Positions 1 to 24,200 of a stretch of DNA of 28,514 nt are shown piece by piece; position 1 is the first letter of the stretch; the number at the start of each line of letters is the position of its first letter. Source of the DNA: Baffinella frigidus (taxonomy: Eukaryota; Cryptophyceae; Cryptomonadales; Baffinellaceae); assembly GCA_026770585.1 (NCBI GenBank), contig MU646334.1:230347-258860 (forward strand), in the 5' to 3' direction. The notes below the pieces were generated by a model that was not told the DNA's origin, made no database searches, and saw nothing but the letters and a program-made list of their open reading frames with translations. The translations under genes were made by a program, and so were the position numbers.

Positions 1-2
1 GT

Positions 3-41
<39 letters not shown>

Positions 42-180
42 GGCTGAGGGCTTAGGGCTTAGGGTTGAGGGTTGAGGGTTGAGGGTTGAGGGTTTGGGGC
101 TTAGGGATTAGGGCTTAGGGCTTGGGGTTCAGGGTTGAGGGTTGAGGGTTGAGGGTTTAGGGCTTAGGGTTGAGGGTTTA
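1..180. repeat. Telomere-like repeat, G-rich on plus strand
   Basis: Runs of GGTTGAG, GGCTTAG and GGTTTAG in 7-bp register. This is the TTTAGGG plant-type telomere unit, mostly as the TTGAGGG variant. It is cut by the window edge, so its full length is unknown. Mixed variants argue for an interstitial tract rather than a chromosome end. Confidence 0.85.
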
Positions 181-249
181 CTGGCGGCGTTTGGGCTCGT
201 GGTCTTGTCGGGAGTGCCAGTCTCGCGGCCATGAAAGTGACATCACGCG

Positions 250-372
250 AGTTGACCGACTATCCTCAAGATGACAAAACTGATTCGCGGAGCAAATCCG
301 TCGACTTTCGAGCGGGAAAGAGCCCGGGCGCACCAAAATGGCAAACCACAACAGACTGAGACAGAGAGCACA
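250..372 (+). repeat. Dispersed repeat (GTTGACATG family), copy 1
   Basis: About 115 bp, beginning near GACTATCCTCAAG, with a core like GGAGCAAATCCGTC, then GAGCGGGAAAGAGCCCGGG, CACCAAAATGG and ending GACTGAGACAGAG. Related copies are at 1371-1482, 3986-4104, about 9515-9600 and 11217-11352, the last two inverted. It has no coding signal and sits between exon copies, so it is probably a short mobile element. Confidence 0.7.
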
Positions 373-492
373 AGAAGAGGAGGACCAGCTGCGCTTGAGC
401 GTGTTTAGGGTTTAGGGTTTAGGTCTTCAGGGCTGAGGGTGTAGGGCTGGTTTTTAGGGCTTAGAGTCTAGGGCTGGTTTAGGGCTGAGGGT

Positions 493-609
493 TTACTGGC
501 GGCGTTTGGGCGCGTGATCCTGTCGGGAGGGCCAGTCTCGCGGCCACGAGAGTGACATCACGCACCCTAGCCACGCCACGCACAGCGCGTCTGTGCCTAC
601 AAGACCAAC
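493..609 (-). CDS. Terminal exon of the membrane-protein gene (best copy)
   Basis: After an acceptor CAG, 38 codons followed by TAA read VGLVGTDALCVAWLG then CVMSLSWPRDWPSRQ and a basic end PKRRQ. The first half would be a membrane helix. The telomere-like repeat starts right after the stop. Four other copies lie at about 178-246, 700-768, 854-917 and 994-1051. The copy at 178-246 keeps the same last 24 or so codons and the stop, which supports the reading frame. Confidence 0.5.
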   Translation of the reverse strand, partial: VGLVGTDALCVAWLGCVMSLSWPRDWPSRQDHAPKRRQ

Positions 610-6094: not shown

Positions 6095-6167
<73 letters not shown>

Positions 6168-9100
6168 GACCCTCAACCCTCCAACTTCCACCCTCCACCC
6201 TCCACCCTCCACCCTCCGCCCTCAACCATCACCCCTACACAAGGTGCCCGCCAATACCGAGGCAAGTTGACGAGGGCCCCGTCAGCCGACTTGATGATTC
6301 CCATCTTGTCGATCCAGCCCATCTCTCCCGAGAGCGAGATCGCCAGGAGCAGCGCGTGCGCTACTAGGACCTGTGATTAAGGGAGTCGGTCAGCAACCCC
6401 TGTAGTTAAGGAAGTCGGCCAGCATACCCTGTAATTAAGGAAGTCGGTCAGCAATCCAAGTAATTGAGGAAGTCGGTCAGCAATCCAAGTAATTGAGGAA
6501 GTCGGTCAGCAATCCCTGTAATGAAGGAAGTCAGTCAGCAAGCCGACTTGATGATTCCCATCTTGCCGATCCAGCCCATCTCCTCGGAGAGCGAGATCGC
6601 GAGGGAAAGCGCGTGCGCCACTAGCACCTGGTAGGGTGCAGGAGGGGTGCGGGTGGGAACAGGAGGCACACAGTGGGCTTCGCAGATCGGTCTATTTGTT
6701 TTGATGATACTGATTGAGAATTTATCGGTCCAAAGACATCTGATAAACCTACATTTCGAACAGATTTATGTTGAAAATCTCCTTCGAAGCCCATTGTGTA
6801 GCAGGACTGGTCAGAGGTTCTCCCGGTGCTGACCCTGTCCGGTTTACACGCGTTCCTGGTTCAAACGCTGCACAGTGTAGTCAAGAGGCGTACGGGGGAA
6901 CTTCGGGCGTGGTTGCCCTCTCGTGCATCGGATCAGGGACGAGAAGCTGTTGAGAAGGTCAAAGATTCCTACGGACAAGATAACGGAAACTCGGGCTCTC
7001 AGCGCCCAAAACCCCCGTTGTAGCCCTCTGTGTGGATGACGTCGGACCATACACTTGAGGCGTCCAGAGAGGGCTCGAACTAGGGCGAAGGGTGAAGGGG
7101 TGAAGAGGCGGGGGAGGGGCCAGACCAGGGAGGGGTAGAGCGGCATCTGTTGGACGGTGATGTGCTCCGGAATTGGTCTGCGAATAGGGAGGGGGCGGGT
7201 AAGCCTCCAAAACCAGCGGTGGTAGGTAGTTGAGTTGATCACGTTTCAAAAGGCGCTGCGGGTAATAAAGGAGATGAAGGAGGAAGGGCGTGCACCCGCC
7301 CACGTCAGCGCGGCGTGTCACAGTGCATGGTGTTGAGGGTATAGCGTATAGAGTTGAGGGTTTGGGGTTGAGGGGTTAGGGGTTAGGGTGAAGGGTTCAA
7401 GGTTTACGGTTTAGGGTTGAGGGTTGAGAGTTGAGGGTCCAGGGTTCAGGGTTCAGGGTTCAGGGTTCAGGGTTCAGGGTTCAGGGTTCAGGGTTCAGGG
7501 TCCAGGGTTCAGGGTTCAGGGTTCAGGGTTCAGGGTTCAGGGTTCAGGGTTCAGGTTCCAGGGTTCAGGGTTCAAGGTTCGGGGGTTAGGGTTCAGGGTT
7601 TAGGGTCTAGCTCGCATGAGCAACAGCAGCGGCTCGTTGTTAACAGCGATGGCAGGGTTCCGGGTTTGGGATTCGGGGTGTAGGGTTTAGGGTATCGGTT
7701 TAGGGCGCATGGTTCAGCTCGCCTGAGCGACGGCAGCGGCTCGTTGTAAACAGCGATGGCAGGATTCCGGAACGCCTGCGCGTGAAACGACCACGCGGCA
7801 GGGGCGGAGTGCCCGTGTCCGGAGTAGTAGAGTACGATCGCTGTTGAGAGGGTCCCGAAGACTACGACCGCTACCTGCCGCGTATATTTCAGATTCAGAT
7901 GCACGTATATATCAGATTCAGGTGCGTGTCAGGTTGTAGAGATATCAGATTCGGATGAGATTCATATATCAGATTAAGATCAGATACCACATGGTGTATA
8001 TCAGGTTATTACAGCACACCGATAAGTATATATCAGATTACCGCAGCACGCCGACATAGCAGAGTACCGCATCGTATCAATGCGTCGCACGTCCGAGGAA
8101 AGCGAGTGCGTGTTTGGTAGGAGGATATTTCAACCAAGAAGGGTCGATTTGGTGAAATGAGACCGGGGGTTTGAGCGTGAGGGTTTGTTTGACTATGGGT
8201 TGGGCCGTGTTCTGGACAACGTTTCGAACAGCACTCACGCTGGGGAGATTGCACGCTAGATTGGGCCCAGACGCATCTGCACTGGAACGAAGCACTGAAA
8301 CGTATTCAACCCTGAGTACAGCAATAATTGCTCAAAACCTGTGTAAAAAATGGACTGCTTCAAAGTTTGAAGTTGAAGTTCAAACCACGGTTTGGGGGGA
8401 AGCGAATTTGGGGGAAGAAATTTTGGGAGGAGCAGTTTGAGGGGAAGCGATTTTGGGGAAAGCGATTTGAGGGGGAAGCGATTTTGAGGGAAGAGATTTT
8501 GGGGGGAGCGATTTTGGGGGGAGCGCACCACGGCGCTAGTAGCGATCATCATGAGGCTGTCCAACACTTCTCCCACCACCTGGCGACCACCCTCGTCAGC
8601 CACGCAACATGGTGTACGTGCTAACGGCCTGAAAATGGGGTAGTTAGGCATACGGCATTGCCTAGGGCCTCCTACCGTAGGCCGAGGGATCCTAGAGCCA
8701 AAAAGTCTCGGCCTACGGTAGGAGGTCCTAGGCAATGCCGTAGGCCTAACCACCCCATTTTCAGGCCGTTACCCTATTAACGTGCTAACACTGTGGCCAC
8801 CACCTCGCTAACCACCTGCTGATCACCCTCGTCTGCCGAACCAGATTCAACCCTGTGTAAAGTCATTGGACATGAGGCTGGCCAACACCTCGCCAACCAC
8901 CTGCGCGACCACCCTCGTCAGCTGCACACTTATGAGTCAACGTGGCGTGTAAGTCAACTGTGCGTGTATAATGTGAATAGAGTGTACTTGGTAACACCGT
9001 GCAACCCTCCTTGCAGTATGATGTCCTTGTCAAGAACGTGTACGATTACTTGCAAAGAGATTTTCGAGCTGAGCACTCAACAAGCATTCACGTTTCGACC

Positions 9101-9880
9101 ATTTGCAAAGAACCCTGGGGAAAGCATCCATCTGTCCGAAACCTCTCGAATGGGCACTGGGGGGCTACACGAGACGCGGTCCTAGGGCCTACCGTGGTCC
9201 GATACCGCATGCCAGCCATCCTGGATCTGAGAGCTAGTCCTCCGTAATGACCAATGTTACGGGGGGGGGGGGTTCGCGACGAGCACGTATGTTGGAGTTT
9301 AGGGTTTAGGGTTTAGGGTTTAGGGTTTAGGGTTTAGGGTTTAGGGTTTAGGGGTTGGGTTGCAGGGTGCAGAGTTCAGGGTTCAGGGTTCAGGATCCAG
9401 GGTTCAGGGTTCAGGGTTCAGGGTTGAAGGTTGAGGGTTCAGAGTTTAGGCTTCAGGGTGTAGGGTCTACCTCGTGCCTGCCACACCAGTGGAACATCCC
9501 ATTCCTCTGGGTTCTTTCCCGCGCCAAAGTTGACGGATTTATACCGCAAAATCCGCATGTCAACTTGAGAATAGTCGGTCAACGCGAGTGAGGTAGAGCT
9601 AGGACCTCGCGTCTCCCGCACCAGTGGAACGTCCCATTTCGAGAGGAGGAAGAGTCCCGATCCGGCACGCTCTCTGACCCATTCGACGCGGAATCTCCGA
9701 GGAATGCCTCCGCCTGAAGACGAGAGGGGTTTAGAGTTTAGGGTTTGGAAAAAGTGAACAAGTGAGGGGTTTGGGGTTTAGGGTTTCGCCACGGCGGCGC
9801 GTTCTCCGTCCCATTCGACGCGGAATCTCCGAGGAATGCCTCCGTCTGAACAGGCGAAGGGGTTAGGGTTCAGGGTTTAG
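493..9880 (-). CDS. Unrecognised multi-pass membrane protein gene, fragmentary exons
   Basis: A series of minus-strand open segments with acceptor and donor-like ends encodes hydrophobic, helix-like peptides. They run from about 9.8 kb to a stop at 493-495. In N-to-C order the clearer ones are at 8524-8579, 7723-7874, 6258-6370, 5799-5910, 5256-5383, 4113-4209, 3559-3671, 2673-2786, 1510-1573 and 493-609. Candidate segments near 9.60-9.74 kb and 7.05-7.25 kb are less certain. I do not recognise the family. The content (at least six hydrophobic segments, short charged loops, a basic KRRQ end) would suit a transporter or receptor. Whether these exons form one gene is inferred from shared strand and order; phases between exons were not all reconciled. 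Several exons have frame-preserving extra copies. Confidence 0.4.
1371..1482 (+). repeat. Dispersed repeat (GTTGACATG family), copy 2
   Basis: This has the fullest core: CTATCCTCAAGTTGACATG, GTTCCCGGTACAAATCCGTC, then GGAGCGGGAAGAGCCCGGGC, ending GACTGAGACA. It separates two copies of the exon at 1290-1354 and 1510-1573, so it lies in an intron of the minus-strand gene. Confidence 0.75.
1510..1573 (-). CDS. Membrane-gene exon MEWVALIAMGRHS, with second copy at 1290-1354
   Basis: An acceptor GGGCAG precedes 64 nt reading MEWVALIAMGRHSE then NDSGVEM, and a GT follows. The nearly identical copy at 1290-1354 keeps the same frame but lacks the same acceptor. The function is unknown. It is probably one helix of the membrane protein. 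Confidence 0.4.
2673..2786 (-). CDS. Membrane-gene exon GTTDERES, hydrophilic segment
   Basis: The exon has 38 codons between an acceptor TAG and a donor CAG|GTCAGT, reading GTTDERESLLSEES then QAGSVHGPRRRDVEAW. A partial copy at 2967-3011 keeps GTTDERELLPSEESQ behind its own TAG acceptor. Another at 2514-2557 keeps GSVHGPRRRDVEAW. Conservation of frame among the copies supports coding. The acidic/basic composition suggests a cytoplasmic or luminal loop. Confidence 0.45.
3175..3560. repeat. Minisatellite of GTGGACACGACAG-type units
   Basis: Irregular units of about 10-30 bp built from GTGGACACGACAGTGG, GTGGACAAGACAGG and CGCACGTGGACACGA fill most of this stretch. It is framed by two copies of an exon-like cassette (about 3206-3285 and 3559-3671), so it appears to have expanded within duplicated gene sequence. 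On both strands the repeats give long stop-free frames with no protein character. Confidence 0.75.
3559..3671 (-). CDS. Membrane-gene exon candidate VWVLVNVPCEKK
   Basis: Behind the acceptor AATCAAG the frame reads VWVLVNVPCEKKPKTS then DTPSRPTEAAMARRAV. A diverged copy at about 3206-3285 keeps ETSDTPSRP but is then frameshifted. The 3' limit is unclear because the minisatellite begins there. Confidence 0.35.
3665..3842. repeat. TTTAGGG-like tract, G-rich on plus strand
   Basis: GGTTTAGGG, GGTGTAGGG and GGTTCAGGG units in a nearly continuous run. It lies between minus-strand exons, so transcripts of that gene carry the CCCTAAA form. Confidence 0.85.
3986..4104 (+). repeat. Dispersed repeat (GTTGACATG family), copy 3
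   Basis: CTATTCTTAAGTTGACATGG, GGTTCCCGGTACAAATCCGT, then GGTGAGCCCGGTCTCACC, ending GACTGAGACAGAG. It sits exactly between the two copies of the exon at 4113-4209 and about 3894-3985. Confidence 0.75.
4113..4209 (-). CDS. Membrane-gene exon AYCAGNSCWDPERDL
   Basis: 97 nt between an acceptor TTGCAG and a donor CCG|GTAAAT reads LAYCAGNSCWDPERD then LSGKFPLMTIAALSLVP. The first part is a cysteine-bearing loop and the second a membrane helix. A second, more diverged copy lies at about 3894-3985 (ERDLSGKFLLMTMTALSLVP). Confidence 0.5.
4381..4510. repeat. Telomere-like repeat, G-rich on plus strand
   Basis: GGGTTTAGGGTTTAGGG at the left, then GGTTGGGGGTTGGGG-type variants. No gene is seen here. 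Confidence 0.7.
4636..4673. repeat. 38-bp near-perfect palindrome
   Basis: The arms GGTCACGTATC and GATACGTGACC flank GGCGGAATTCCGCC, with one mismatched base pair. It could be a cruciform or transcript hairpin, or the remains of a foldback element. No coding sequence overlaps it. Confidence 0.85.
4860..5383 (-). repeat. Three tandem copies of one membrane-gene exon
   Basis: Copies lie at 5256-5383, about 5063-5175 and about 4895-4995, spaced about 170-190 bp. All keep a stop-free frame: LLGLITDITGFGFYSS...PTTFPGDEI, LLGIVTNIMGFVCYAS...PTTFPSDEI and LLGPITDITSFVFYAS...PTIFPGDEV. Between copies lies a dispersed repeat (GGTCCATTT family). Confidence 0.65.
5256..5383 (-). CDS. Membrane-gene exon ALLVLLGLITDITGFGF (best copy)
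   Basis: Between an acceptor ACCGCAG and a donor ATCAG|GTCTTT the frame reads SSATALVWSM, then SALLVLLGLITDITGFGFY and SSRWPTTFPGDEI. The 20-residue hydrophobic run is a clear membrane helix. The other two copies lack the good acceptor, so this is the likeliest working exon. Confidence 0.55.
5390..5432. repeat. Short telomere-like tract
   Basis: GGTTCAGGGTTGAGG followed by GGTTAAGGGG-type units, abutting the acceptor of the exon at 5256-5383 on the minus strand. The repeat itself therefore forms the acceptor region. Confidence 0.6.
5799..5910 (-). CDS. Membrane-gene exon GRYILWAVSEAGGSI
   Basis: The frame reads VVDCVGGLGRYILWAVSEA then GGSILLLSLSEYLRPQ, ending at a donor CAG|GTACCG. It is strongly hydrophobic with a small-residue GG motif, as in transporter helices. 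The acceptor is not certain, so the high-coordinate end is approximate. Between this and 5383 another stop-free minus segment (about 5440-5600) may be coding, but no frame stands out. Confidence 0.45.
6085..6236. repeat. CCCTCAA/CCCTCCA telomere-variant tract, C-rich on plus strand
   Basis: Near-perfect CCCTCAA repeats, then CCACCCT units. This tract is an exception to the strand bias: it lies in the minus-strand gene but is C-rich on the plus strand. Confidence 0.85.
6258..6370 (-). CDS. Membrane-gene exon VLVAHALLLAISLSGEM
   Basis: The acceptor CACAG is followed by VLVAHALLLAISLSGEMG, then WIDKMGIIKSADGALVNLP, with a possible donor CG|GTATTG. A copy at 6542-6627 keeps VLVAHALSLAISLSEEMG and WIGKMGIIKSA behind its own acceptor ACCAG. 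Most changes keep the frame. Confidence 0.5.
6371..6541. repeat. About six 29-30-bp tandem repeats
   Basis: The unit is roughly GTAATTAAGGAAGTCGGTC then AGCAATCC. The array lies exactly between the two copies of the exon at 6258-6370 and 6542-6627. Its boundary shares sequence with the exon edge (AGTCGGCT/AGCCGACT), suggesting slippage during the same duplication. Confidence 0.8.
6680..6800 (+). repeat. Dispersed repeat (GGTCCATTT family)
   Basis: Contains CAGATCGGTCTATTTG, TCGGTCCAAAGACATCTG and CTCCTTCGAAGCCCATTG. Related stretches are at 2587-2660, 4985-5040, 5150-5240 and 18985-19110. It is non-coding and intronic where the context is known. Confidence 0.6.
7330..7610. repeat. GGTTCAG tract
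   Basis: Long, near-perfect GGTTCAG heptamers (7440-7580) after mixed GGTTTAG/GGTTGAG units. It is a homogenised variant of the telomere unit, G-rich on plus, in the minus-strand gene region. Confidence 0.9.
7723..7874 (-). CDS. Membrane-gene exon VAVVVFGTLSTAIVLYYSG
   Basis: The acceptor GCGGCAG is followed by VAVVVFGTLSTAIVLYYSG, then HGHSAPAAWSFHAQAFRN and PAIAVYNEPLPSLRRA. The only plausible donor at the end is GC (CTCAG|GCGAGC). One membrane helix is followed by a polar loop. A partial copy of the 3' end lies at about 7618-7663. Confidence 0.5.
7890..8075. repeat. Degenerate ATATCAGATT repeats
   Basis: Repeated pieces TATATCAGATTCAGGTG, GATATCAGATTCGGATG and TATATCAGATTACC at irregular spacing of 30-45 bp. 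No gene is seen. Confidence 0.6.
8380..8525. repeat. GGGGAAGCGATTTTGG repeats
   Basis: About eight degenerate units of 16-17 bp (GGGGAAGCGATTTTGGG and close relatives). They give stop-free frames on both strands with repetitive peptides, so I take this as a simple repeat, not coding. Confidence 0.75.
8524..8579 (-). CDS. Membrane-gene exon VVGEVLDSLMMIATSAVV
   Basis: The acceptor CGCCAG is followed by VVGEVLDSLMMIATSAVVRS. Related partial copies lie at about 8793-8840 and 8876-8927; the latter keeps CAG then VVGEVLASLM. The 3' end runs into the GGGGAAGCG repeat. Confidence 0.4.
8616..8789. mobile_element. Foldback (MITE-like) element with 10-bp target duplication
   Basis: Inverted arms of about 64 bp: left GGCCTGAAAATGGGG...CCTACCGTAGGCCGAG, right CTCGGCCTACGGTAGG...CCCCATTTTCAGGCC. 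The direct repeat ACGTGCTAAC stands at 8616-8625 and 8780-8789. It is inserted between two copies of the exon VVGEVL. A decayed relative, starting TTAATAGGGTATTAGCCTGA, lies at 18808-18880. Confidence 0.85.
9296..9470. repeat. TTTAGGG and GGTTCAG tracts
   Basis: Eight near-perfect GGTTTAG units (9299-9352) pass into GGTTCAG units. Both are G-rich on the plus strand. Confidence 0.9.
9515..9600 (-). repeat. Dispersed repeat (GTTGACATG family), inverted copy
   Basis: On the minus strand: CTATTCTCAAGTTGACATG, then GGTATAAATCCGTC and AACTTTGGCGCGGGAAAGA. It sits between copies of a WDVPLVxxxR-coding segment (9473-9515 and 9600-9740). Confidence 0.65.
9600..9870 (-). other. Duplicated minus-strand coding-like segment WDVPLVRETR
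   Basis: One frame at about 9600-9715 reads RRFRVEWVRERAGSGLF then LLSKWDVPLVRETR. Pieces are repeated at 9784-9850 (RRFRVEWxxER part) and 9473-9515 (WDVPLVWQAR). A second frame is also open, so the reading is uncertain. This may be an early exon of the membrane-protein gene. Confidence 0.3.
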
Positions 9881-10430
9881 GGTTTAGGGTTCAACAAGGG
9901 AAGGGGTTAGGGTTGAGGGGTTTAGGGTTTAGGGTTTGGGTTTAGGGTTTAGGGTTTAGGGAGGTTTTGGGTGCCTTCGACTGAAGAAGAGACAAGTGAG
10001 TCACGTCACCTAATGGATTATATCTCAGATTTGGCTTGGTGGTGGAGCCGTTAAGCAATTTTAGGGCTTATAATACCGGGAGGTGTACCGGGAATCCTTT
10101 AGATGGACGCCCTGCGAAATAGATTATGTTAAGTGGCGCGATGAGAGAGGCGGCGCGGTGAAGCTCCGCGTGTCGGAGAAGACGTCGAGTACCAAACGTG
10201 AGGGGATTCCGCTTTCAGATACCACATAGTACTTATATATGTGGGATTCTGCGGAATCCCCTGAGACCCACCCGTGGTTTCGCGGCTCGGGGTGGCGTGT
10301 GGAAACTTTCTAGCTCTGCATCAGTGAATCTGGGATCATCATCAAATGCAATTGGATCAGGGCTCCGTACAAACGCTCCTGTACAAAGTGCATCTAGACG
10401 TATTGAATGAGGAGCCCGTGTCAACTGAGG
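9870..10430. other. Intergenic stretch without a recognised gene
   Basis: After more TTTAGGG repeat (9880-9965), I see an 11-bp inverted repeat GGGGATTCCGC/GCGGAATCCCC at 10202-10212 and 10251-10261, forming a hairpin. A piece at 10075-10120 (TTTAGATGGACGCCCTGCG) recurs inverted at 18536-18555. The segment 10305-10410 starts TCTAGCTCTGC like the MITE at 19268. On the minus strand it reads PDPIAFDDDPRFTDAELE, which may be a relic of coding DNA. Confidence 0.5.
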
Positions 10431-11107: not shown

Positions 11108-11213
11108 AGGGGTCCGCACATACGCCGCAATCTCCTCCTCCTGCAGCGCAGCCTTGTAAAGCAACACTCGCGCCAACCTCCCGTTAAACCCCTCCCCGAC
11201 CATCAGCCTTCTG
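11108..11213 (-). pseudogene. Intron-less copy of LamG exons 3-4
   Basis: It reads LMVGEGFNGRLARVLLYK, then AALQEEEIAAYVRTP, without a break. It therefore contains the 3' end of exon 3 joined directly to exon 4, which confirms the splice junction predicted for the main gene. It lacks the exon 3 start and runs into telomere-like repeat. It could instead be an alternative 3' exon. Confidence 0.7.
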
Positions 11214-11216
11214 CCT

Positions 11217-11352
11217 CGGTCTTTGTGGGCTCACCATTTTGGTGAGCGCGGGCTCTTCCCCGCTCCAAAGTTGACGAATTCGTACCGCACACCCATCATG
11301 TCAACTTACGAATAGTCCGCGAGCTAACCCGACAGAGGCAGAGCTAGACATT
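11217..11352 (-). repeat. Dispersed repeat (GTTGACATG family), inverted copy in LamG 3' end
   Basis: On the minus strand it starts TCTAGCTCTGCCTCTG, then CTATTCGTAAGTTGACATG, GGTACGAATTCGTC, GAGCGGGGAAGAGCCCGCG, CTCACCAAAATGGTGAGC and ends CCGAGGCAG. It supplies the last codons and the stop of the LamG model and separates the main gene from its intron-less copy. Confidence 0.75.
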
Positions 11353-13171
11353 CTGGGGGCACGGGTCCGTACATGCGCCGCAATCTCCTCCTCCGACAGC
11401 GCAGCCTTGTAAAGCGACACTCTCGCCTGGTTTAAGGGTTGACGGTTGACGGTTGAGGGTTTAGAGTGTAGAGTGTAGGGTGTAGGGTTGAGGGTGTAGG
11501 GTGTAGGGTTTAGGGTGTAGGGTGTAGAGTGTAGGGTTTAGAGTGTAGGGTTTCGGGTGTAAGGGGTTCATTGTTTCATTGTTGGGTGTAGGGTTCTCGC
11601 CAGTCTCCCGTTGAACCCCTCCCCAATCATGAGCCCACGCCCAGCATAGCACGACGGCCCGCGCGACTCGCAGGTGCCCGCCAGCTGTGAATCCGCGGGG
11701 AGCGTGTGCCATGCGTCCAGCGTTCCTGCCAAAGGGGAGTCACGCACACATGAGACGGTATTGATAATACCGTGCATAATTTGTCCAATGTTAGTAGGAT
11801 ACGTCTTGAAACATGAGGTGGAAATGCGAAGCTGTGGCCAGCTGTGCCGACGCGGGGAGCGTGTGCCATCCACCAGCAACCCGTAGCAGCTTATACCGGG
11901 TACTCGCAAGAATTCGGGTATTTTATTGGAAAGACAATCTTTCCTATGACCCTACAGTAGGAAACCCTAGGGACCTCGAATTGCTGACGGGAGATACCGA
12001 AGAGATTTCTTCGGTTTAGCTGAAAATTACTACAGTACCCGATACGGATATAAGCTGCAACGGGTTGCTGGTGGATGCGGCCAGTGTTCCTGCCATCGCG
12101 GAGCCAAGGTGTTAGGTGCGACTAATCCACCTGACATTGTAAGACTTATCCTAGTGACGTCCCTGCCCCCTCGGAGTCACTCACACGTGATACCTTGCTG
12201 TATCTTTTTGTGCAATGGATAGGATGCGTGTTACGATGTTTTAGGTGGGGGTGAAAAGCTCTGGGGGGCGTAGAGGCGGCGAGGTTGGGAGGTGGGTTTT
12301 CGGAGAGGTTGGAGGGGTTGGGTTTCGGGGTTCGGGGTTCGGGGTTCAGGTTTAGGGTTTAGGGTTTTGAGGGTTTAGGGTTTAGGGTTCAGTCTGCACC
12401 ATTGATGTAGAGCATAATCGCGGAGCTGTTCAAGACCGCGGCCACGTGCGTCCACACGCCCGGCTCCCAGGCCTCCGCGGTGGAGTGCAGTTCGGAGACC
12501 GAGGAGAGGTACGAGGTGTTGTCGCGCGCGTCCTGTGGGGGTTTGTGTGTCACGGTAAAGATTCGGGGGGGGGTTCGGCTTCGAGCGAACGCGGAGTGAG
12601 TTGTGGAGTGAGCGGCGGGAGGTGATGTATGAAGGTGCACCATGTGGTACATGGTGCAGGGTTCGGGGTTCGGACGAGAGTTCCAGACCTGAAGTGCCCA
12701 CAGGGAAACAAGGCGCCCTCGCAGGAGGAGCAGACGTGGTGAGAAGACAGAAGACTCGTTCAGGAACCGCAACAAGCCCTGCGTCGCGCTCGCATTTGTC
12801 GTCTGGCACGCCGGTGAGAACAGCAGCTCCACCGTGAAGGTGCTGCTCATCGGGACGAAGACCGACGGCACCACCACGAACCCCCCGGGGTTGAAAGCAA
12901 GGGCGGTCTCTGCTCCGTACCCCTCGGAACGCCAGACACACGGGCGCGAGACGCACTCGTCGCCGTCGCCGATGAACCCGTCGAAGCGCCCGCATGAATC
13001 TGGCACCGTGTTGTTCACAGCGTCCTCTCCAGACAGCTTCCAGGACGCCCACGGGAGAGGCTTCGGATCCGCCTCTGCCGCAGCCCCGTCGGCGTCGCCG
13101 TTGCAGCACGCGACCAGCAGAAAAATAGCCGCCGCGGCCAACAGCACCGACGCGTGCGATCGCACCGCCAT
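11301..13171 (-). CDS. Secreted LamG-like (jelly-roll) domain protein, 4 exons
   Basis: Exons, read on the minus strand: 13171-12689, 12532-12400, 11725-11601, 11426-11301. The total is 867 nt (288 aa plus stop). The chosen ATG gives a typical secretory signal peptide (MAVRSHASVLLAAAAIFLL, then VACCNGDA). The rest has the order of a Laminin_G_3/concanavalin fold: STFTVELLFSP, then WTHVAAVLNSS, IMLYING, GLMIGEGFNGRLAR and LYKAALSEEEIAAHV. Such domains usually bind glycans or proteins outside the cell; the ligand here is unknown. Intron 1 is 156 bp, in frame and without stops, but its removal restores the domain. Intron 3 has GC-AG ends. The last 16 or so codons (from RMSSSASV) and the stop lie in a dispersed repeat, so the true C-terminus may differ; a GTAAGT just before the stop could be a donor to further exons. 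An upstream in-frame ATG at 13258 would spoil the signal peptide. Confidence 0.8.
11427..11600 (-). repeat. LamG intron 3: telomere-like intron bounded by 7-bp direct repeat
   Basis: This 174-bp GC-AG intron is almost wholly CCCTAAA/CCCTACA/CCCTCAA repeat on the sense strand. TCTCGCC (plus strand; GGCGAGA on the sense strand) stands at both ends (11421-11427 and 11595-11601). Splicing at GC...AG removes one copy and restores GRLARV. Confidence 0.75.
11830..12105 (-). pseudogene. Decayed copy of LamG exon 3 split by a large inverted repeat
   Basis: On the minus strand, TGGCAG|GAACACTGGCCGCAT near 12095 matches the exon 3 start, and GGATGGCACACGCTCCCCGCG near 11857-11876 matches its continuation. 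Between them lies an inverted repeat (11867-12077) with arms CATCCACCAGCAACCCGT and ACGGGTTGCTGGTGGATG, then CAGCTTATA/TATAAGCTG. The copy is frameshifted. Confidence 0.6.
12290..12388. repeat. Telomere-like repeat in LamG intron 2
   Basis: GGTTTCGGGGTTCGGGG then GGTTTAGGGTTTAGGG on the plus strand, i.e. CCCTAAA on the sense strand, directly after the exon 2 donor at 12399. The rest of intron 2 (11726-12289) holds the decayed exon 3 copy and no gene. Confidence 0.85.
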
Positions 13172-13435: not shown

Positions 13436-16400
13436 ATGGTGAAGGCATATCAGCGGTACCAACTCGGCGAGAAAGGCACACTTGGTGCCATCGCCTCGAC
13501 CACATGCTGCGACGTCCAGTGGGGCGACGCCTCAGGTACCACAACACAACCGGGGTCCTGTGCTCCTGAATGGCTGCACCCAGCGGAGATCCACGTGCCT
13601 GCGGAGTGATCCCGATACCTGTATATCCGCCCATTGGTTGTGTGCACAGCCTGCGCTCAGATGGGTCACCGCACCTTCACATCAACTTTTGCCGATTCTT
13701 GAATCTCAAGCGCTCGGCTTTCCCAAAACAGGGCACCTCGCCTTCTCCGCATCCCTCGATGCTGTCGTCCTCTGGAACCTCCGCACGGTACTCCCCTCGC
13801 GCCAATTTCCCCCCCTTCGGCCCCTTGGCGTCTCACCGAACACCCTTCATCCCCGCAGCGCCAGGTCGCAAACACTGACATCCATGTTGTGAACACTGCT
13901 AGTAAAACACTGACATCCACCGTGAAACCTGCAGGGCGCGAAGGTGGCTGAGCTGCGTGACCCCGAAGGATCTGCGGAGGTGGCCTCCCTCACGGTCTCC
14001 TCGAGCAGCCGCTTGGTCGGTGTGGGGCACCAGGACGGGAAGGTGCCTCCCCCCAGCCTCACCCTCCCAGCCTCCCCACCCACCCACCCTCCCCCCACAA
14101 CAACCTCTCCACAGAACCGCCCCCCCGCCCTCCCCCAACCACCCACCGCGTTGCATCATTCACCTAACCTTAACCCGAAACCCTAAACCTGAATCTAAAT
14201 CTAAAACTAAACCTCAACCTAAAACTAAACCTGAACTTAAACTTAAACCTAAACCTAAACCTAAACCTTAACTTAAACCTCAACCTGAATATAAACCAAG
14301 ACCAACATCTGAACCAAAAAAACGAAACCGAAACCTCAACACAAACCAGGTGCGGCTCTGGGAGCGCGACTCCCTCGAGATGCGCGTGGCTCTCGACGGC
14401 CACCGCGCCGTCGCAGGTGCCTGAACCCTCAACCCTGGATAATAAACAATAAACCATGAACTCTTAGCACTAAACCATGAACCATGAACCATGAACCATG
14501 AACCATGAACCATGAACCCTGCACCCTAATCACTCAACCCGAAGCCCTAGACCCGAGACCCCAAACCCTAAACACCCAACACCAATAACAAACAACAAAT
14601 AAACAAACAAACAAACAAACAAAAACAAAAACAAAAACAAAAACAAAAACAAAAACAAAAACAAAATCCCCAAACACCAAACACCAAACACCAAACACCA
14701 AACCCAAACCCAAACCCAAACCCAAACCCAACCACCACACCCCAAATCCCAAATCCCAAACCTCTCACCCCTCACCCCTCACCCCTCACCCCCAAACCCC
14801 AAACCCCCAGGCGCCCTCGCCTTCAACGACGACGGAACGCTCCTCGCATCTGGGTCATTCGACACAGACGTGATCGTGTGGGACGTGGTCGCGGAATCCG
14901 GGCTGTACCGCCTCCGCGGGCATAAGGACGCGGTGACCGCCGTGTGTTTTATCGCGGGGGGCGGCGGGCCGGGGCGGCTTGTTTCGGCGAGTAAGGACTC
15001 GCTCATCAAGGTCTGAATCCCGAATCACGATCTTTGAACCTTAAACCCTGAACCCGAAACCCGAAACCCTAAAACGTAAACCCTGAACACTAAACACTAA
15101 ACACTAAACTCTAAACACTAAACCATAATCCGTAATCCCTGGTCTTTAAACCCTAAATCCTGAACCCTAAACCCTGAACCCTAAACCCTAACCCTAAACC
15201 CTAAACCCATAAACCCTAAACCCTAAATCTCAAATCCTAAATCCCAAAACACGACCCACTCAACGCAACTCCCTTCCCCAGGTATGGGAACTAGAGCAGC
15301 AGCACTGCATGCAAACCCTCACGGGGCACCGCTCCGAGGTCTGGGCGCTCACCGTCGACCCAGCCTCCCGGCGCATGATCTCTGGAGGTGCGGACCCGAA
15401 ACCCCAAACCCCAAACCCCAAACCTGAGACCCGAAATCCGAATCCCGAAACCCGAAACCCTAGACCCTGAACCCTGAACCCTGAGCCCGAAACCCGAAAC
15501 CCGAAACCCGAAACCCGAAAATCTAAAGCCGAAACCTTAGGATCGGACGCGGAGCTGCGTGTGTGGGCGATCAACCCGGATGCGAAGGCGCCCACCGCGC
15601 CGCCTGCCGGTGAGCATGCCCCTCTTGCCGCTGCCTCTTACCGCTGTTCCCTCTCTCTCGGATTCTCTCTCTTCCTCTCGCTCTCTCTCTCGCTCTCTCT
15701 CTATGTATATCTCTCGCTAGCGCTCTATCTCTATGAGGCTCGGACGTGTTTGCCTCCTTCTGATGTTCCCTCTCTTTCTCTGTCTCGCTCTCTCTCGTTG
15801 TCTTTTTCTTTTCTTTTCCTCTCTCGCGCTCTCTCTCTTTAGCTCACTCTCTTTCTCCCTGTCGCTCTGTCTCTCTCCCAGGCAGAGACGCTGAGCAACA
15901 GCCGCCAAAGGAAGATGCACGATCCTGAGGAGTCAATACCGTGCATTGACCGCCCCTGAAATCGAACGGCCCCCCGACTGACCCACAACCTCTGCGCACA
16001 GGTGGGGCCGTGGTGAGCACCTGGGGGGAGGAGGACAAGGAAGGCTCCCACGCGGTCACCTTCCTTGGAAGCGTGCCCAAGGGGAGCCGTGCGCGGGTGG
16101 GGCGGCTGGGGGTGTGCGGGGGAGGGGTTGTGATGTGCCAGACCATGGACAAGAATGTGCAAATGCTGCGCATTCGTTCAAAGGAAGAGGCGGTGAAGAA
16201 GATGCGGCGCCGCCTGAAACGCGCGCGCGAAAAGGGCACCGCCGAGAAGGGCGCCGCCGACACCGTCAGGTCAACCTTCCGCTCTGATTTGTGGACCACC
16301 ACAACATCAACATTCTGTTTTGGACTTTGCAGATCGGCACGGCAAACCCTAAACCCTCAAACCTAAACGGCAAACCCTACACCTGCAGCGACGCCGCGGG

Positions 16401-19400
16401 CGTGGCGCACGTCCCGACGGCTGGGGACGAGATCCAGCAGCTGTCCTTCTTCTCTGCGTCGCACAAGCTGCGCGCGGCGGCCGCGATGTGCATGCCGGAC
16501 GGGGCGGGGGGCGGGGGCGTGAAGGTGCTGTGTGCGCTGAGCAACAATGCGCTCGAGGTGTGGGAGGTCGGGGTGGAGAAGGGCGCTGAGGCGGTCCTCG
16601 GCGCGGCGCTCTACCAGCCGGGGCACCGCTCGGACGTGCGGGCCGTGGCGCTGAGCAACGATGACACCGCGGTGGCGGCGTGCGCGGGGGGGGAGTTGAA
16701 GGTGTGGAACCTGCAGAGTGGGCACTGCTTCCGATCGCTCGCTAGCGGGTACCTGCCCCCGCCCCCATTTCACGCGTGGGAGAGGCGTACCCCTGTTTCA
16801 CGCGTGTGTGTTGGATGGTCCATCCCCCTTGCGCATCGCTTCCCGTCGGTTGACCGAGGGGCATGGGTTGGGGGTTGGGGTTTTAGGATATAGAGTTTTT
16901 GGATTTTGGGTTTGGGTGTGTACCAGGAAAGGAACGGACAGGAATGGTATACTATACAACTACCTGTGCAGCCCTCTGATGGTATATACCTTGACCCTAG
17001 TTGAGCGACCACGACGATGGAATCCGGTTCGCAGTGTCCTAAACCCTAAACCCTAACCTTAAACCCCAAACCCTGAACCCTAAACCCCAATCCCCAAACC
17101 CCAAACCCCAAACCAAAACCACCCCTAAACCCCAACACCCCAAATCAGGTACGGAGTATGCTGCGCGTTCGTTCCTGGGGACAAGTACATCGTGGTCGGA
17201 ACAAAGCAGGCGCGTCCCCTCCCCCAACCAAAGTGGCCCAGAGTGACTTTCCCCAAACCGATTTGAATTGAGGTCGTCTCAATCCCGCCGTTGAAGCGTC
17301 CCCTTCCCCTCTGCGCCCACACGCCTCGCCGTTGAAGCTGGTAGGGTCCAGGATCTCGTTTCGTGTTTCCGTTTTTTGGCGTGTAGGTCCTGGTCGTGCA
17401 AGCCCGTCAAGGAAGGGAATACATGGTGGCCATGTTGGTGTCGACCCGTAATAAACTGTGGCGCGTGTTCATGCACCCTCCGCTGACGCACGATAGGGTA
17501 AAAGCCGTTTTAACCAACGATAAAGAAGCGAAACCGCAACGTTTGCTGACACGTGATGGGGTGTCGCGTCCGCAGGGGCAGCTCCAGCTGGTGGACGTGG
17601 CCGCAGCGGAGATGGTGGGCAACTTCGACGCCCACGAAGGGTCAGTGTGGGCGCTGGCCATGCGCCCGGATGGCAAGGGTTTTGTCACTGCCGGCGCTGA
17701 CAAGGAGGTGCGTCTTCTTGTCAGTCTATTTGGTCTCGCCAAGACTTGGTCCGGGGGCTTGTTGTGTCTACTTTCGTCAGTAGGGGGGCATCTCGTGAAG
17801 TGCGGCCCGCATCGGGTGTGGATGTGGTCCGTTCCTTAGTCCGGCGATGGCGCGGGTTTGGCAAAACATCGAATCCGATCTAACGAATTCATCATCCATT
17901 CTAATGAATTAGAAAGGATTTCCAATGACTTCATGGGCGTCTCTTGAAGTGTCTCTCGGTACCCTGCATTTCGCGATTGTACGGGCATCCGGAAAAAAAT
18001 ATTCCCCGGAGCAGGTGAAGTTCTGGGCGTACTATTCCTGGTACAAAACCGGGTACTTTAACCCCCTGAAAGTACGAAATGGCTCCAATGCGATGCCAAA
18101 TCTGAGATGGGATCTATTAGACGTGACGGGGGTAAATCGGCGCAGGTGAAGTTTTGGGAGTACGGGGCGGAGAAGACTGAGAGCTGACGCTGTCAGACTT
18201 TCCGTTGCCTTATCGTGACCCCCCTATCTCCCTACGGTATGGCCTACCGTAGGGTCCTCCGTAGGGTCCTATGGGTTATTCACGAAGTCCCTTTGTAGTC
18301 CGCTGTGTGGTTCACATCATTTCAGAAACCAAATCGGCGCAGGTGAAGTTTTGGGAGTACGGGGCGGAGAAGACCGAGAGCGGCGCGACTCTTGGGTGTC
18401 TTCTTGCGCCGAGTCTTGTGTAGTCTATCTGTAGGTAAGTGCTTTGGTGTCTTCGTGCGCCGTCTGACGCTCAGCGTTCTCATGAATCCCGAAATCAAAT
18501 CAAATTAAATCGCGTGACCTAACGATTATATTCCGCAGGGCGTCCATCTAAACGATTCCTGGTACAAACCCAGGTATTTTACACCCCTAAAAGTACGAAA
18601 TGGCTCCAATGCCAAGCCAGATCTGAGGCGGAATCTATTAGAGGTGACGGGGGTAAATTGGCGCAGGTGAAGTTTTGGGAGTACGGGGCGGAGAAGACCG
18701 AGAGCGGCGCGACGCAGCTCACGCTCAGCGTCGCGAAGGCGGTCACCATGGAGGATGACGTCCTCGCCGTCAGCTTCAGGTCAGCACGACTGTCAGCAGT
18801 CAGCACACGTTAATAGGGTATTAGCCTGAATTCGGGGTAGTTGAGCCTACGGTAGGCTATCCTGATTGCAGCTAGTCTCCGGCAGGTCCTATTCGTCTTC
18901 TTCTTCTTCTTCTTTATTACTGGAAATGAGTGATCCAAAAGTCTACGAGCCTTAAGACGGGCCCGCTTCGGTACAGCGGCGGTCCTTGAGGTGACCGCCA
19001 CACAGTGGGTTTTGCAGGGAATTTCGACCAGCAATCTGGTCGAAATGTCGATCAACAAGATGTCTTCGTACCGAGCAACTGTTTATTAGTGCCACGAACA
19101 TAAGTGGTCACCATGGAGGATGACGTCCTCGCCGTCAGCTTCAGGTCTGCACGACTGTCAGCAATCAGCACACGTGACCCGGTTTGCAGGATGCCCGCTC
19201 TCGCCTGGAATAGGTTGTGAGCCTCGTTTCATAACCTGCACGAGTGTCCGCACGCGGCATCTGATTTCTAGCTCTGCCTGAGTAAAACTGGGCTCGCCGA
19301 ACAACACATTTGGAGCAGAAAGTCCGGTACGAGAGGGCACGTCATGCTTTTATGGTGAGCCCAGTTTTATTCAGGCAGAGCTAGGATTTGTTGGATGCCC

Positions 19401-20906
19401 GTGCAAAGTGAGACGAGACACACAAGGCTGTTGACTGTTCCGAGAAGATTTCCACCAGGACGTCACCAAACCCGGGGAAACGATTTGCACCACAGCAGCC
19501 TGAACCTAGTCTCAGAGAGTACGCACGGAATCTTCCTGTTTGATTAGGAGATGCTGGAGTATTTAAGTTATTACCTGACGGGATGGCATCTGCAGGCTTT
19601 CCTCGAAACCAGCCCTTACGGGAAGTCTGCAACTAGTCAACAGTCGGGACTCTGGAAGAGACTCTTCCTCACGGAATCTGAAGCCTTTCCTCGCTGGATA
19701 AACCCTTGCCCATGAACCCTAAACTCTAAACCCTAAACCCTAAACCCTAAACCCTAAACCCAAAACAGCCCCGACGGGAAGTTCCTCGCACTCGCCCTCC
19801 TCGACACCACCGTCAAGGTGAGACTCAAACCCGCGAAACCTTCTTGGTGCACAATGAAAAACATGTGAGAGTGAAGCGCCGCGCCCGGACCTACGTTGTA
19901 AAGGGGACGGAGTTTTGGCGTCGTACTGTCATTTCAGCCCCTGAAAACTACCGTATTGGTACAAGTTTTTCGGAATGCCTTTTTTACGGGGTCTGTCGTG
20001 TCCTCCGGGTGTGCCCCCAACCTACATTTCCCGTAGTTTCACTTGAGCCATTCGCAACTAGCATCCTTCCGCCTCCAGGCGCGGAGTGAAACGTTTCTTG
20101 ATCACCGTTTCCTTTTCTTGATCACTTTTCTTGATCACCGCATCAGTCACCGCAATGGCCACCCCGTACCCCAACGTCTCTGGCTAGTGCACACCTTCTC
20201 AACAAACCTGAGCGCGGGCCTCCAGGCGAGGTCCTCTGAGCAGCCATAAGTACCCAGGGCTCATAACCTTCCCCATCCACCCCCCCCAGTCTTCCGCCCA
20301 TGGCACACCTGCCCAGGTCGTCCGCTCATGACACCCCCCTCTCTCCCGCAGGTGTTCCAAGCGGAGACGATGAAGTTCTTCCTCTCGCTCTACGGCCACC
20401 GACTCCCCGTCCTCTGCCTCGACATCTCCACAGGTACCCCTAATGTTACCACCGTCAGCATCCCAAGCCCCACACAAGCAAAATGTCTTCTCTTTGATCC
20501 CACGCCCCTACCTGCAGCGCCCACGCCTCCCCCAAGCTCGGGAGGTTCGTTCTTGAGGCTCATAGACATTGTATCACTCAACTCAAGGCTAAAGGGCCTA
20601 TCTAGGACCTGTATCGAGAGTAATAAAGAAGCAGAGAGAAGTTCCACGCAGGACACGGCCAGATCGAAGCTGACTAACTCAGCCCCCGCCTCTCAACCCT
20701 AACCCTAATCCCTCCACAGACTCGACGCTTCTCGTGACGGGGTCTGCGGACAAGAACGTCAAGGTCTGGGGGCTCGATTTCGGAGACTGCCATAAGAGCA
20801 TGTTCGCACACCAGGTCGGCCTTTTCCCTGATAGATACATACCGGTCGGCCTTTTTCTGGTTAATTGATTGATCAATTCATTGAAGGATAGATAGATAGG
20901 TAGATG

Positions 20907-20939
<33 letters not shown>

Positions 20940-21203
20940 GTAGATAGATAGATGGATAGATAGGCAGATCTGGGGACTCGATTTCGGAGACTGGCATAAG
21001 AGCATGTTCGCGCACCAGGCCGGCCTTTTCTCTGATAGATACATACCTATATACGTACATAGAAACATACGTAGATACATATTATAGATACATACATACA
21101 TACATACATACATACATACATACATACATAGATACATACATACATACATACATACATACATACATACATACATACATACATACATACATACATAGATATG
21201 CAT

Positions 21204-21258
<55 letters not shown>

Positions 21259-24200
21259 CAAAGAAAGATAGAAAGATAGAAAGATCGATACACACACCTA
21301 CATGCAGATAGATACACACCTAGATGCAGAGACATGGATGGATGGATGAATCCCAACCCTCCCAAGGATGGATGGATAAATGCCAACCCTCCCCTCGGAC
21401 GTGGATCGTACACGGGTCCCGTCCGTGTGCTATCCAGCCCTCTTCGAACTCCAGGGGGGGCGGCAGTGCACCAAACCATAAACTAACCCCTAAACCCTAA
21501 ACCCTAAACCCTAAACCCTAAACCCTAAACCCCAAACCCTAAACCCTGAACCCTGAACCCTAAACCCTAAACCCTAAACCCTAAAGCCTAAACCCTAAAC
21601 CCTAAACCCTAAACCCGCTGGCCTAACCCAGGACAACGTGATGGCGGTGAAGTTCGTGCCGCGCACTCACTACTTCTTCTCGGGCGGCAAGGACAAGATC
21701 ATCAAGATGTAACCCCAAACCATGAACCCGGAATCCGAACCCTGAACCCGAAACCCGAAACCCGAAACCCGAAACACCTGGACCCGAAACCCTAAACCCT
21801 AGACCCTAGACCCTAGACCCTAGAACCTAGAACCTAGAACCTAAACACCAATCACCAAACACCAAACACCAAACCCTAAAACCAAAACCCCAAACCCCAA
21901 TCCCCAATCCCCAATCCCCAAACCCCAAACCTGAATCCAGGTGGGACGCCGACAAGTTCGTGCAGATCACGACCATCCGCGCACACTACTCCGAGGTGTG
22001 CCCCCCCCACCCTGAACCTTAAACCCGAAACCCGAATCCCGAAACCCGAAACCCTTTACCTTAAAGCCTTAACCCGAAACCCGAAACCCGAAACCCGAAA
22101 CCCGAAACCCGAAACCCGAAACCCGAAACCCTTTCCACCTCTGTTGATGGTTTTGTTGGTCGCACCAGCACCACCGCAATTCCCTGGGCGGAGCGCGAGA
22201 TATGTGCGCTTCTGGCCCACCGTAATTAGCATACGGGCATGGGCTAGGGTCCCTCCCGTCGGGAGAAAGTCTGGATGGGTCGCGCGCATTTCACCTCCCG
22301 CACCATAAACCATAAACCATAAACCGTACACCATAAACCATAAACCATAAACCATAAACCATAAACCATAAACCATAAACCATAAACCATGAACCATAAA
22401 AGCCCTTCGCTCTAAACCCTAAACCCTAAACCCTGACCCCCCGAACAGGTGTGGTGCATGGCGATTTCCAAGTCGGGCGACCTGCTCGTGTCCGGCTCGC
22501 ACGACCGCTCGGTACCTCCCTTTCCTTCTTTATCACTCTCGAGCCTTGAGTTGAGTGATCCGCTCGGTACCGCCTCGCGCACTCCTGTCCGCACACCACG
22601 CCAGGTCATAGGTCGGAATTTCAGGACGCAACGGTTCGTTTCGTGGTACTAAATGGTACGTACTGACCTGGCGACACGCAACTCCTCGTCCTTTCCGCAT
22701 CCGATCCGAATACAAAATGATCCGCTCGGTACCGCCTCGCGCACCCGAGTCCGCACACCTGTCTTTTGGAGGGGTGCGCGCGTGGAAAAAGACGCCAAGC
22801 ACCGAACCCCAACCCCCAAACCGGCACCTCCCCCAGCGCGCGCGGCACTCACCCTCCAAGCACTCGACCCGAAGCCCTGACGCTCACCCGTCGCCCCAAA
22901 CACCAAACATCAAACAAAAACCAAAAACCAAACACCAAACACCAAACACCAAACACCACACCCCATATCCCCAACCCCAAGCCCTCACACCACACCACAC
23001 TCACCCCTCACCCCTCATCCCTCACCCATCACCCATCACCCCTCACCCCTCACCCCTCAACCCTCACCCCTCGCCCCTCACTCATCACCCCTCGCCCCTC
23101 AACCCTCAACCCTCACCCCTCACCACTCACCCCCACACCCCAACCCCAGGTGCGCGTCTGGAACCGGACAGAGGAGCACGTGTACATCGAAGAGGAGCGC
23201 CAGAAGGAGCTGGATCTCCTCCTCGAGGCTCCCGAGAACACCTCCGGCCCGGCGCTTGACGGTACCCCTTAATAAACCCTACACTTGAACCCCTGAAATC
23301 TGACCCAGAAGGAGCTCCTCTGTCCGGTTCTGCACGCGTACCTAGGTTGGGGCAATTGGGGGTTGGTCGAGGCGGACCTGGATAAGGGGTTTGGGGTTCG
23401 GGGTGTACATCGAAGAGGAGCGCCAGAAGGAGCTGGACCTCCTCCTTGAGGCCCCCGAGAACACCTCCGGGCCCGCGCTTGACGGTACCCCTAAACTCTA
23501 AATATTGCGCCCAAAACCTTAACCCCTCAACCCTAAACTTTGACCCGTAAACCCTGAGATGGACCTCCTCGAGGCCCCCGAAAACACCTCTTGGCCCGCG
23601 CTTGACGGTGCCACTTCACCCTAACCCCTAAACTTTCACCCATAGACACTAAACTGTAACCCCTAAACCCTGAGCTAGACGTCCTCCTTGAGACTCACGA
23701 GAACACCTCCGGCCCGGCGCTTGACGGTGCCCCTAATCTCTGAACACTCAACTTTACCCCCCCAAACCCGAAACCCTGAGCTAGACCTCCTCCTCGAGGC
23801 CTCCCAAAACACCTCCGGCCCGGCGTTTCACGGTACCCCTTCAAGCCTAAACTTTCGACCCGAACCCCGAAACCCGAAACCCGAACCCAAACCAAAAACC
23901 AAAAACCAAAAACCAAAAACCAAAAACTACAAACCCCAAACCCCAAACCCCAAACCCCGAACCCCGAACCCCAAGACCCAAACCCCAGAACCCCAGCCCC
24001 CAACCCTCAACCCCAAACCCTAATCCCTAATCCCTAACCCAGGGGGTGCGGTGGGCGGGGAGGAGTCAGCGCCGGTGGCGAAGGAGACCAAGGAGTCGCA
24101 GGATGCGTGCGATCGCATCATGGAGGCCCTCGACCGGTGAGCTCCTGGGTCTAGGGTCTAGGATCCAGGGTCTAGGGTCTAGGGTGTGTTGGCTTGGGTT

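Follow-up and report, generated by a model that had tools for sequence, protein, structure and literature searches.

Telomere-type DNA in an intron of a Laminin-G gene of Baffinella frigidus: a likely case of intron gain by insertion with target duplication

The Laminin-G gene and its neighbourhood

We analysed a 28,514-nucleotide stretch of DNA (the window) from Baffinella frigidus, an Arctic single-celled alga of the cryptophytes, which contains a gene with a predicted Laminin-G domain on the minus strand and a WD40/UTP12-type gene on the plus strand. The features considered below are as follows, with a slash marking splice points here and throughout.

12689..13171, minus strand: exon 1 of the Laminin-G gene
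12533-12688, minus strand: intron 1, between exons 1 and 2; 10% telomere-type
12392..12532, minus strand: exon 2; 3' edge approximate
11601..11684, minus strand: exon 3; 5' edge approximate, with no firm donor assignable to intron 2
11427..11600, minus strand: predicted intron 3, 174 nt, G/GCGAGA ... AACCAG/GCGAGAG
11595..11601, minus strand: upstream copy of a 7-bp repeat, GGCGAGA, whose bases 2-7 (GCGAGA) would form a GC-type 5' splice site
11428..11594, minus strand: telomere-type array of 167 bp, with CCCTAAA/CCCTACA/CCCTCAA units and the C-rich strand in sense
11421..11427, minus strand: downstream GGCGAGA copy, whose first G (11427) would be the second base of the acceptor AG, with exon sequence after it
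11301..11426, minus strand: exon 4, to the next stop; terminal part inside a MITE-like element
11111..11206, minus strand: second copy of the junction between exons 3 and 4 without the intron (empty site); 84 of 96 nt match
13935..24137, plus strand: WD40/UTP12-type gene, shown as 18 exons with 17 homology-placed introns

In the sense of the Laminin-G gene, the site is laid out as ...AACGGGAGACT (GGCGAGA) ACCCTACACCC...CTTAAACCA (GGCGAGA) GTGTCGCTT..., with exon 3 ending in ...AACGGGAGACTG, intron 3 starting with GCGAGAACCCTACACCC and ending with CCCTTAAACCAG, and exon 4 starting with GCGAGAGTGTCGC. As a preliminary description of this DNA had claimed, GGCGAGA stands in exact copies at both edges of the insert, and the repeat is exactly seven bases long, because the bases adjoining both copies differ. 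The same description had placed a GC donor and an AG acceptor in the duplicated sequence, which holds, at 11601/11426. Both positions are out by one base: the GC-AG pair that preserves the reading frame gives a predicted intron from 11600 to 11427, joining ...GGGAGACTG to GCGAGAGTG. Its wording of a nearly pure CCCTAAA/CCCTACA intron is slightly strong for a sequence that has 82% of its length covered by heptamers at most one mismatch from CCCTAAA and that also contains a doubled CAATGAAA and CCGTCAA units. The array itself contains no AG, no GC, and two GT. A repeat search of positions 11400-11630 returned six inverted pairs, none of them joining the ends of intron 3.

The copy at 11111-11206, which had likewise been described as lacking the intron, indeed reads through the same point unbroken as GRLARVLLYKAAL, with GGCGCGA at the position of the repeat, and differs from the interrupted copy at 12 of 96 aligned nucleotides (12.5%). 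A MITE-like element with imperfect ends (CTAGCTCTGCCTC.../...GAGGCAGA) lies at about 11210-11347, between exon 4 and this copy, and elements resembling it by eye occur in three other loci, L044 (about 1570-1705), L048, and L050. The true C-terminus of the protein is uncertain, because the last part of exon 4 falls in this element.

The spliced Laminin-G model matches the Laminin_G_3 profile over positions 7-151 of 151 (48.5 bits), whereas a reading that runs into intron 3 matches it only at positions 7-105 (32.2 bits). Removal of the predicted intron restores the last third of the domain with GC-AG splice sites and the frame kept, which supports the splicing model. Two relatives were matched in the protein collection, neither of them a homologue spanning intron 3: P0241, an unspliced reading of the window itself, and P0242, an environmental homologue that agrees with the removal of intron 1 and stops near the start of intron 2. 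The four genome matches all fell at this locus and thus included no other paralogue with or without intron 3.

In the neighbouring gene, the 704-aa spliced model is identical to part of P0121, annotated as 'WD40-repeat-containing domain protein [Baffinella frigidus]', and all 17 predicted junctions agree with that public model. Seven of these 17 introns are telomere-type by the definition given below, and an eighth was flagged as uncertain. Partial exon copies of tens of bp, split by arrays or other sequence, are found at WD40 exon 10 (window 18012-18710, with starts at 18012, 18143, 18340, and 18664, the last being the exon itself) and exon 17 (window 23200-23840, five copies, the first being the exon itself), as well as in L027, L045, and L052. 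Long GATA and ATAC tetranucleotide arrays occupy positions 20887-21290 of the window within a WD40 intron, together with a duplicate of part of the exon before it. Sixteen more telomere-type arrays lie at positions 1-9970; in 15 the plus strand is the G-rich one, and therefore any genes there may be on the minus strand.

Telomere-type introns in the genome

A telomere motif TTTAGGG has been reported from cryptomonads (PMC7046594), and genome sizes of 534.5 Mb for Baffinella sp. CCMP2293 and 87.2 Mb for Guillardia theta were compared in a study whose main text contains neither 'intron' nor 'telomer' (0 occurrences each; PMC9756366). The assembly analysed here comprises 382 Mb in 1364 contigs. 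The 24-mer CCCTAAACCCTAAACCCTAAACCC was counted 22,831 + 21,408 times in it (overlaps counted), versus 10 + 9 times for a reversed control. Heptamers with at most one mismatch from CCCTAAA, on either strand, cover 24% of 116,952 sampled non-N bases, the Markov background being about 2.2% and 2.6% on the two strands, and CCCTAAA is the commonest exact tandem heptamer (1677 of 5038), followed by its one-base variants. Among 20 scaffold ends inspected for a terminal CCCTAAA repeat, 9 were all N and the remainder mixed (9 of 10 left ends N, right ends mixed). Long N stretches stand near the start of many large scaffolds; of twenty 10-kb stretches taken at the same place in contigs 1-20, 16 were entirely N and one mostly N.

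An intron was called telomere-type when at least 30% of it was telomere-type sequence, a threshold set on the C-rich strand. The first set contained 60 introns placed by frame and homology in a flippase gene, the WD40 gene, the Laminin-G gene, and nine kinase loci; three uncertain flippase and WD40 junctions were dropped, leaving 57 introns, 30 telomere-type and 27 others, and the dropped WD40 junction was later borne out by the public protein. Laminin-G intron 2 was excluded from the counts, its donor being unfixed. The second, replication set, from the upstream part of the flippase gene and seven more kinase loci, added 20 introns, 9 telomere-type and 11 others. The choice of splice sites was made by eye, on the basis of reading frame and homology, once the search for repeats had begun; an independent check exists only for the 17 WD40 junctions. 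The four tubulin matches, three of which were long single stretches, were uninformative for intron presence or absence.

The Laminin-G intron is not a single oddity: 39 of the 77 homology-placed introns are telomere-type and 38 are not; these proportions are not genome estimates, because the loci were chosen by kinase matches and chance readable stretches. The orientation of the arrays is one-sided. Over all 77 introns, 8710 bp are CCCTAAA-like in sense versus 724 bp TTTAGGG-like, the latter near background, and at least 50 bp of C-rich sequence in sense is present in 52 of the 77, at least 50 bp of G-rich sequence in 2 of the 77. CCCTAAA contains no AG, GT, or GC, while a TTTAGGG array brings one AG per heptamer as well as GT-type donors. 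For this reason the C-rich strand would be tolerated in sense, and we infer that selection at the level of splicing can explain the bias. The introns listed showed simple repeats with differing units, and no shared end sequence was seen in the first-set list.

If a target sequence is duplicated on insertion, with its left copy supplying the donor and its right copy the start of the next exon, the beginning of the intron and that of the next exon should match in register. We compared intron nucleotides 3-6 with next-exon nucleotides 3-6, outside the GY dinucleotide, against permuted pairings, which retain the splice consensus. The 39 telomere-type introns gave 52 matches versus 35.8 expected (sd 4.8, p 0.001, 20,000 permutations), and the 38 others gave 46 versus 43.5 (p 0.34, 20,000 permutations). 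In the first set alone, the telomere-type introns gave 42 versus 27.3 (sd 4.27, p 0.0004, 5,000 permutations) and the others 35 versus 32.3 (p 0.31); leaving out the Laminin-G gene, the flippase, or the WD40 gene gave p values of 0.003, 0.004, and 0.011, respectively (20,000 permutations). The nine telomere-type introns of the replication set alone showed no excess (10 versus 9.3). Of the seven registers tried (-2 to +4), only register 0 was raised (z 3.45 in the first 30 telomere-type introns) and, weakly, register +2 (nominal p 0.025). On the upstream side, the exon end compared with the intron end at positions -6 to -3 showed no excess (31 versus 33.2, p 0.76); the repeats of L052 and L025 described below nonetheless sit on that side of the splice points. 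Adding two L052 introns gave 55 versus 37.5 (p 0.0003), both having been added after a repeat had been noticed.

Runs of at least five matches occur in 4 of the 39 telomere-type introns versus 0.38 expected and in 0 of the 38 others, and runs of at least six in the splice-site register in 2 of the 39, the Laminin-G intron included, versus 0.10 expected under permuted pairing. A looser test at array edges gave a mild excess, with repeats of at least 7 in 12 of 105 arrays versus 6.0 expected. Roughly one in ten telomere-type introns thus has a clear repeat and most have none; the latter may be older or may have been made otherwise. Simple ageing of the arrays would predict a repeat score that follows array purity, and no such relation was seen (Spearman -0.22, p 0.18, n=41).

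Uninterrupted sites and the origin of the introns

An automatic search with 124 arrays for sites at which the two flanking sequences adjoin yielded 50 rows, most of which were, by inspection, array-to-array matches or repeats of the same locus. Three were real sites: the Laminin-G pair, recovered independently with a flank overlap of 7; the kinases L035 versus L040, with an overlap of 3; and L025, in which an insert at 8427-8684 bears CGCAG at each end, with an uninterrupted copy close by at L025:8843-8921. All comparisons for such sites are with paralogues or sister copies, not orthologues.

In the kinase L052 (G000:C63:357701-359200, minus strand), a 439-bp telomere-type insert lies between two copies of the 11-bp CAGCATGCAGG, and five relatives (L035, L040, L053, L054, and L055), none of which contains CAGCATGCAGG, are uninterrupted at that point. 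The L052 copy may be damaged, because exact splicing of this insert would need a GA-AG intron. At a second kinase position, SDK/V, telomere-type introns are present in L052 and L035 and absent from L040, L053, L054, and L055. L035, L040, and L052 group together (100/97) with an internal branching that the tree does not resolve, so that the SDK/V intron may have disappeared from L040 or arisen on two occasions. The HRD/IKP intron is found, in the kinase family compared, in L035 and L040 only. Within the SDK/V intron of L052, decayed copies of its own acceptor and exon start were seen (CCAGGTCACTCTCCTCGATCTTGAC versus CCAGGTCGTGATCGTCGACCTCGGG), as if the site had been repeatedly broken. In the flippase L027, the positions DK/TGTLT, Q/GLRT, and Q/KEY hold telomere-type introns and are uninterrupted in the paralogues L056 and L057, which are bounded by telomere-type DNA at positions other than these three. 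Between two kinase genes, at L041:2800-8090, about 5 kb of TTTAGGG-like array is followed by the C-rich strand, the array edges being inverted copies of a short sequence (ATGTCTGGTCTCAACATCGATC).

For the Laminin-G site, intron gain by insertion with target duplication is likely and is the best-supported reading of the sequence, because an exact 7-bp repeat lies at the splice sites, a neighbouring copy is uninterrupted, and splicing would restore the domain. These observations partly support the interpretation that had been proposed from the sequence; the accompanying epithet 'recent' finds no support in the mixed units of the array and the 12.5% divergence of the copy. More generally, we put at about 0.6 the probability that telomere-type DNA was inserted at a staggered break, that the duplicated target supplied the splice sites, and that such events recurred in this genome. 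The steps would be as follows. A staggered double-strand break in the Laminin-G coding sequence would leave 7-nt overhangs (GGCGAGA) and would be repaired with a telomere-type piece, whether by telomerase addition to the downstream end, by copying of telomeric RNA, or by capture of a fragment. Fill-in of the overhangs would place GGCGAGA on both sides. With its C-rich strand in sense, the insert would bring no AG and hence no competing acceptor; the left copy would become the donor G/GCGAGA, and the right copy together with the last A of the insert would become the acceptor CCAG/G. The insert would then be spliced out exactly, leaving the protein unchanged, and the same type of event would have been repeated elsewhere in the genome. 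The insert with its exact repeat, the uninterrupted copy, the one-sided orientation, and the further repeat-bearing cases are observed; that a break occurred and was repaired, that the filler came from telomeres, and that the insert is spliced out are inferred, and the telomere-repair mechanism is plausible. That much of the Baffinella intron complement was made in this way, by telomere repeat patching staggered exon breaks through telomerase or telomeric RNA, with only C-rich-sense inserts at an AG/GY target surviving as introns, is a wider conjecture that we entertain with some doubt.

It is unlikely that no introns were gained and that old introns were instead invaded or expanded by telomere-type repeats, the splice-site repeats then reflecting chance or consensus. 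Such invasion would suit a genome in which arrays are this common and hold different unit variants, and in which most telomere-type introns have no clear direct repeat. It is at odds with the uninterrupted sites in paralogues or sister copies, with flippase and kinase intron positions that are not common to the paralogues, and with a register signal confined to the telomere-type introns.

We consider it improbable that the copy at 11111-11206 lost its intron, or derives from a spliced mRNA copied back, so that the pair would say nothing about gain and the 7-bp repeat would have allowed an exact deletion or be coincidental. The preliminary description had argued that loss would not explain the repeat, which mostly holds, with the qualification that from one pair a precise repeat-mediated loss or a cDNA-derived copy is possible. 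The copy is short and lies 3' of the gene, with its exons precisely joined; the same picture is seen at L025, and L040 may have lost its SDK/V intron. Other local partial copies, on the other hand, include parts of introns, which indicates that copying at the DNA level is common here; the comparison of L052, with its 11-bp repeat, against five relatives does not involve a short local copy; and a 6-base run in the splice register is rare by permutation.

The recurrent partial copies at WD40 exon 10 (four including the exon) and exon 17 (five including the exon) and in L027, L045, and L052 raise the further idea that tandem duplication of an exon stretch with an AGGY motif made the intron and that the filler repeat grew later. 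Pure duplication yields an intron of exon sequence, whereas the 167 bp at the Laminin-G site are array-like with no exon copy seen, and the arrays are one-sided in orientation, so that this origin has little probability. A true introner, that is, a non-autonomous DNA transposon with a telomere-type body spread by a transposase, is very improbable, since target duplications (3-9 bp in published introners, PMC9860276), splice sites inside them, and many copies are what it predicts, but the ends of intron 3 are joined by no inverted repeat, the first-set introns show no shared end sequence, and the duplication length is not fixed.

Insertion at staggered breaks remains our preferred reading. Duplications of about 4, 5, 7, and 11 bp and partial exon copies of tens of bp are unlike the product of one transposase, and staggered-break repair, which gives variable duplications, fits them and the missing inverted ends better than a classic introner does.

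Relation to known sources of introns

The origin of introns is a long-standing question, and organisms that allow a gain to be observed are few. Should telomere-type DNA turn into introns on a regular basis, gene structure would be linked directly to break repair and to telomere biology, and the repair of chromosome ends would supply introns continually, unnoticed so far because low-complexity introns are left out of surveys. The array would also serve as a recognisable label, by which young gains could be listed, aged by the decay of array and repeat, and compared between strains. What we describe would be a little-seen way to make introns that seems to recur in several genes of this alga. 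No report of introns made of telomere repeat was recognised in the literature searched, which was open-access, subscription papers lying mostly outside its scope.

Short interstitial telomeric sequences provide the closest precedent for the insert. They were described at double-strand breaks in primates, rodents, and horse as one-step insertions, and 3 of 66 horse loci show a direct duplication of the target that was ascribed to staggered breaks (PMC7215372). No human interstitial telomeric sequence was found in exons, which is unsurprising given the stop codons they bring, and their effect on splicing was posed as a question (PMC7215372). The Baffinella case is alike in that telomere-type repeat appears to have been inserted at a break with the target duplicated, and differs in that a coding sequence was hit and the insert seems to serve as an intron, repeatedly, whereas the portion of that study considered here reports no intron-making insert.

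The new introns of Daphnia pulex provide the precedent for the repeats. They carry direct repeats of 4-12 bp at opposite ends, ascribed to the repair of blunt or staggered breaks, and their internal repeats were ascribed to repeated breaks (PMC4202315). Of the features expected of such a break-repair intron, Laminin-G intron 3 has direct repeats from the adjacent exon at its opposite ends and an empty site in a relative, here a paralogue, but the filler in Baffinella is telomere-type repeat in one orientation, and 'telomer' has 0 occurrences in the main text on Daphnia.

Intron birth by tandem duplication of an exon piece bearing AGGT is a further route in which the duplicated target gives the splice sites, as in Baffinella, where however the intron body is a telomere-type array and not exon.

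Introners (PMC9860276; in Amoebophrya, PMC7789003) share with the Baffinella introns the presence of many similar introns, short direct repeats at splice sites, and non-standard donors. The introner survey removed low-complexity families by design, and therefore introns of the Baffinella type would not appear there (PMC9860276). Introner-like behaviour, as first suggested for the Laminin-G site, is upheld as regards target duplication at the splice sites and not as regards a classic introner, intron 3 having no inverted repeat at its ends and the repeat length ranging from about 4 to 11 bp. Laminin-G intron 3 is therefore best described as a probable break-repair intron with telomere-type filler, which would work like an introner and is without the inverted ends of one. 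Repair-made introns and telomeric insertions are each known; their combination, the orientation filter, and the scale look new.
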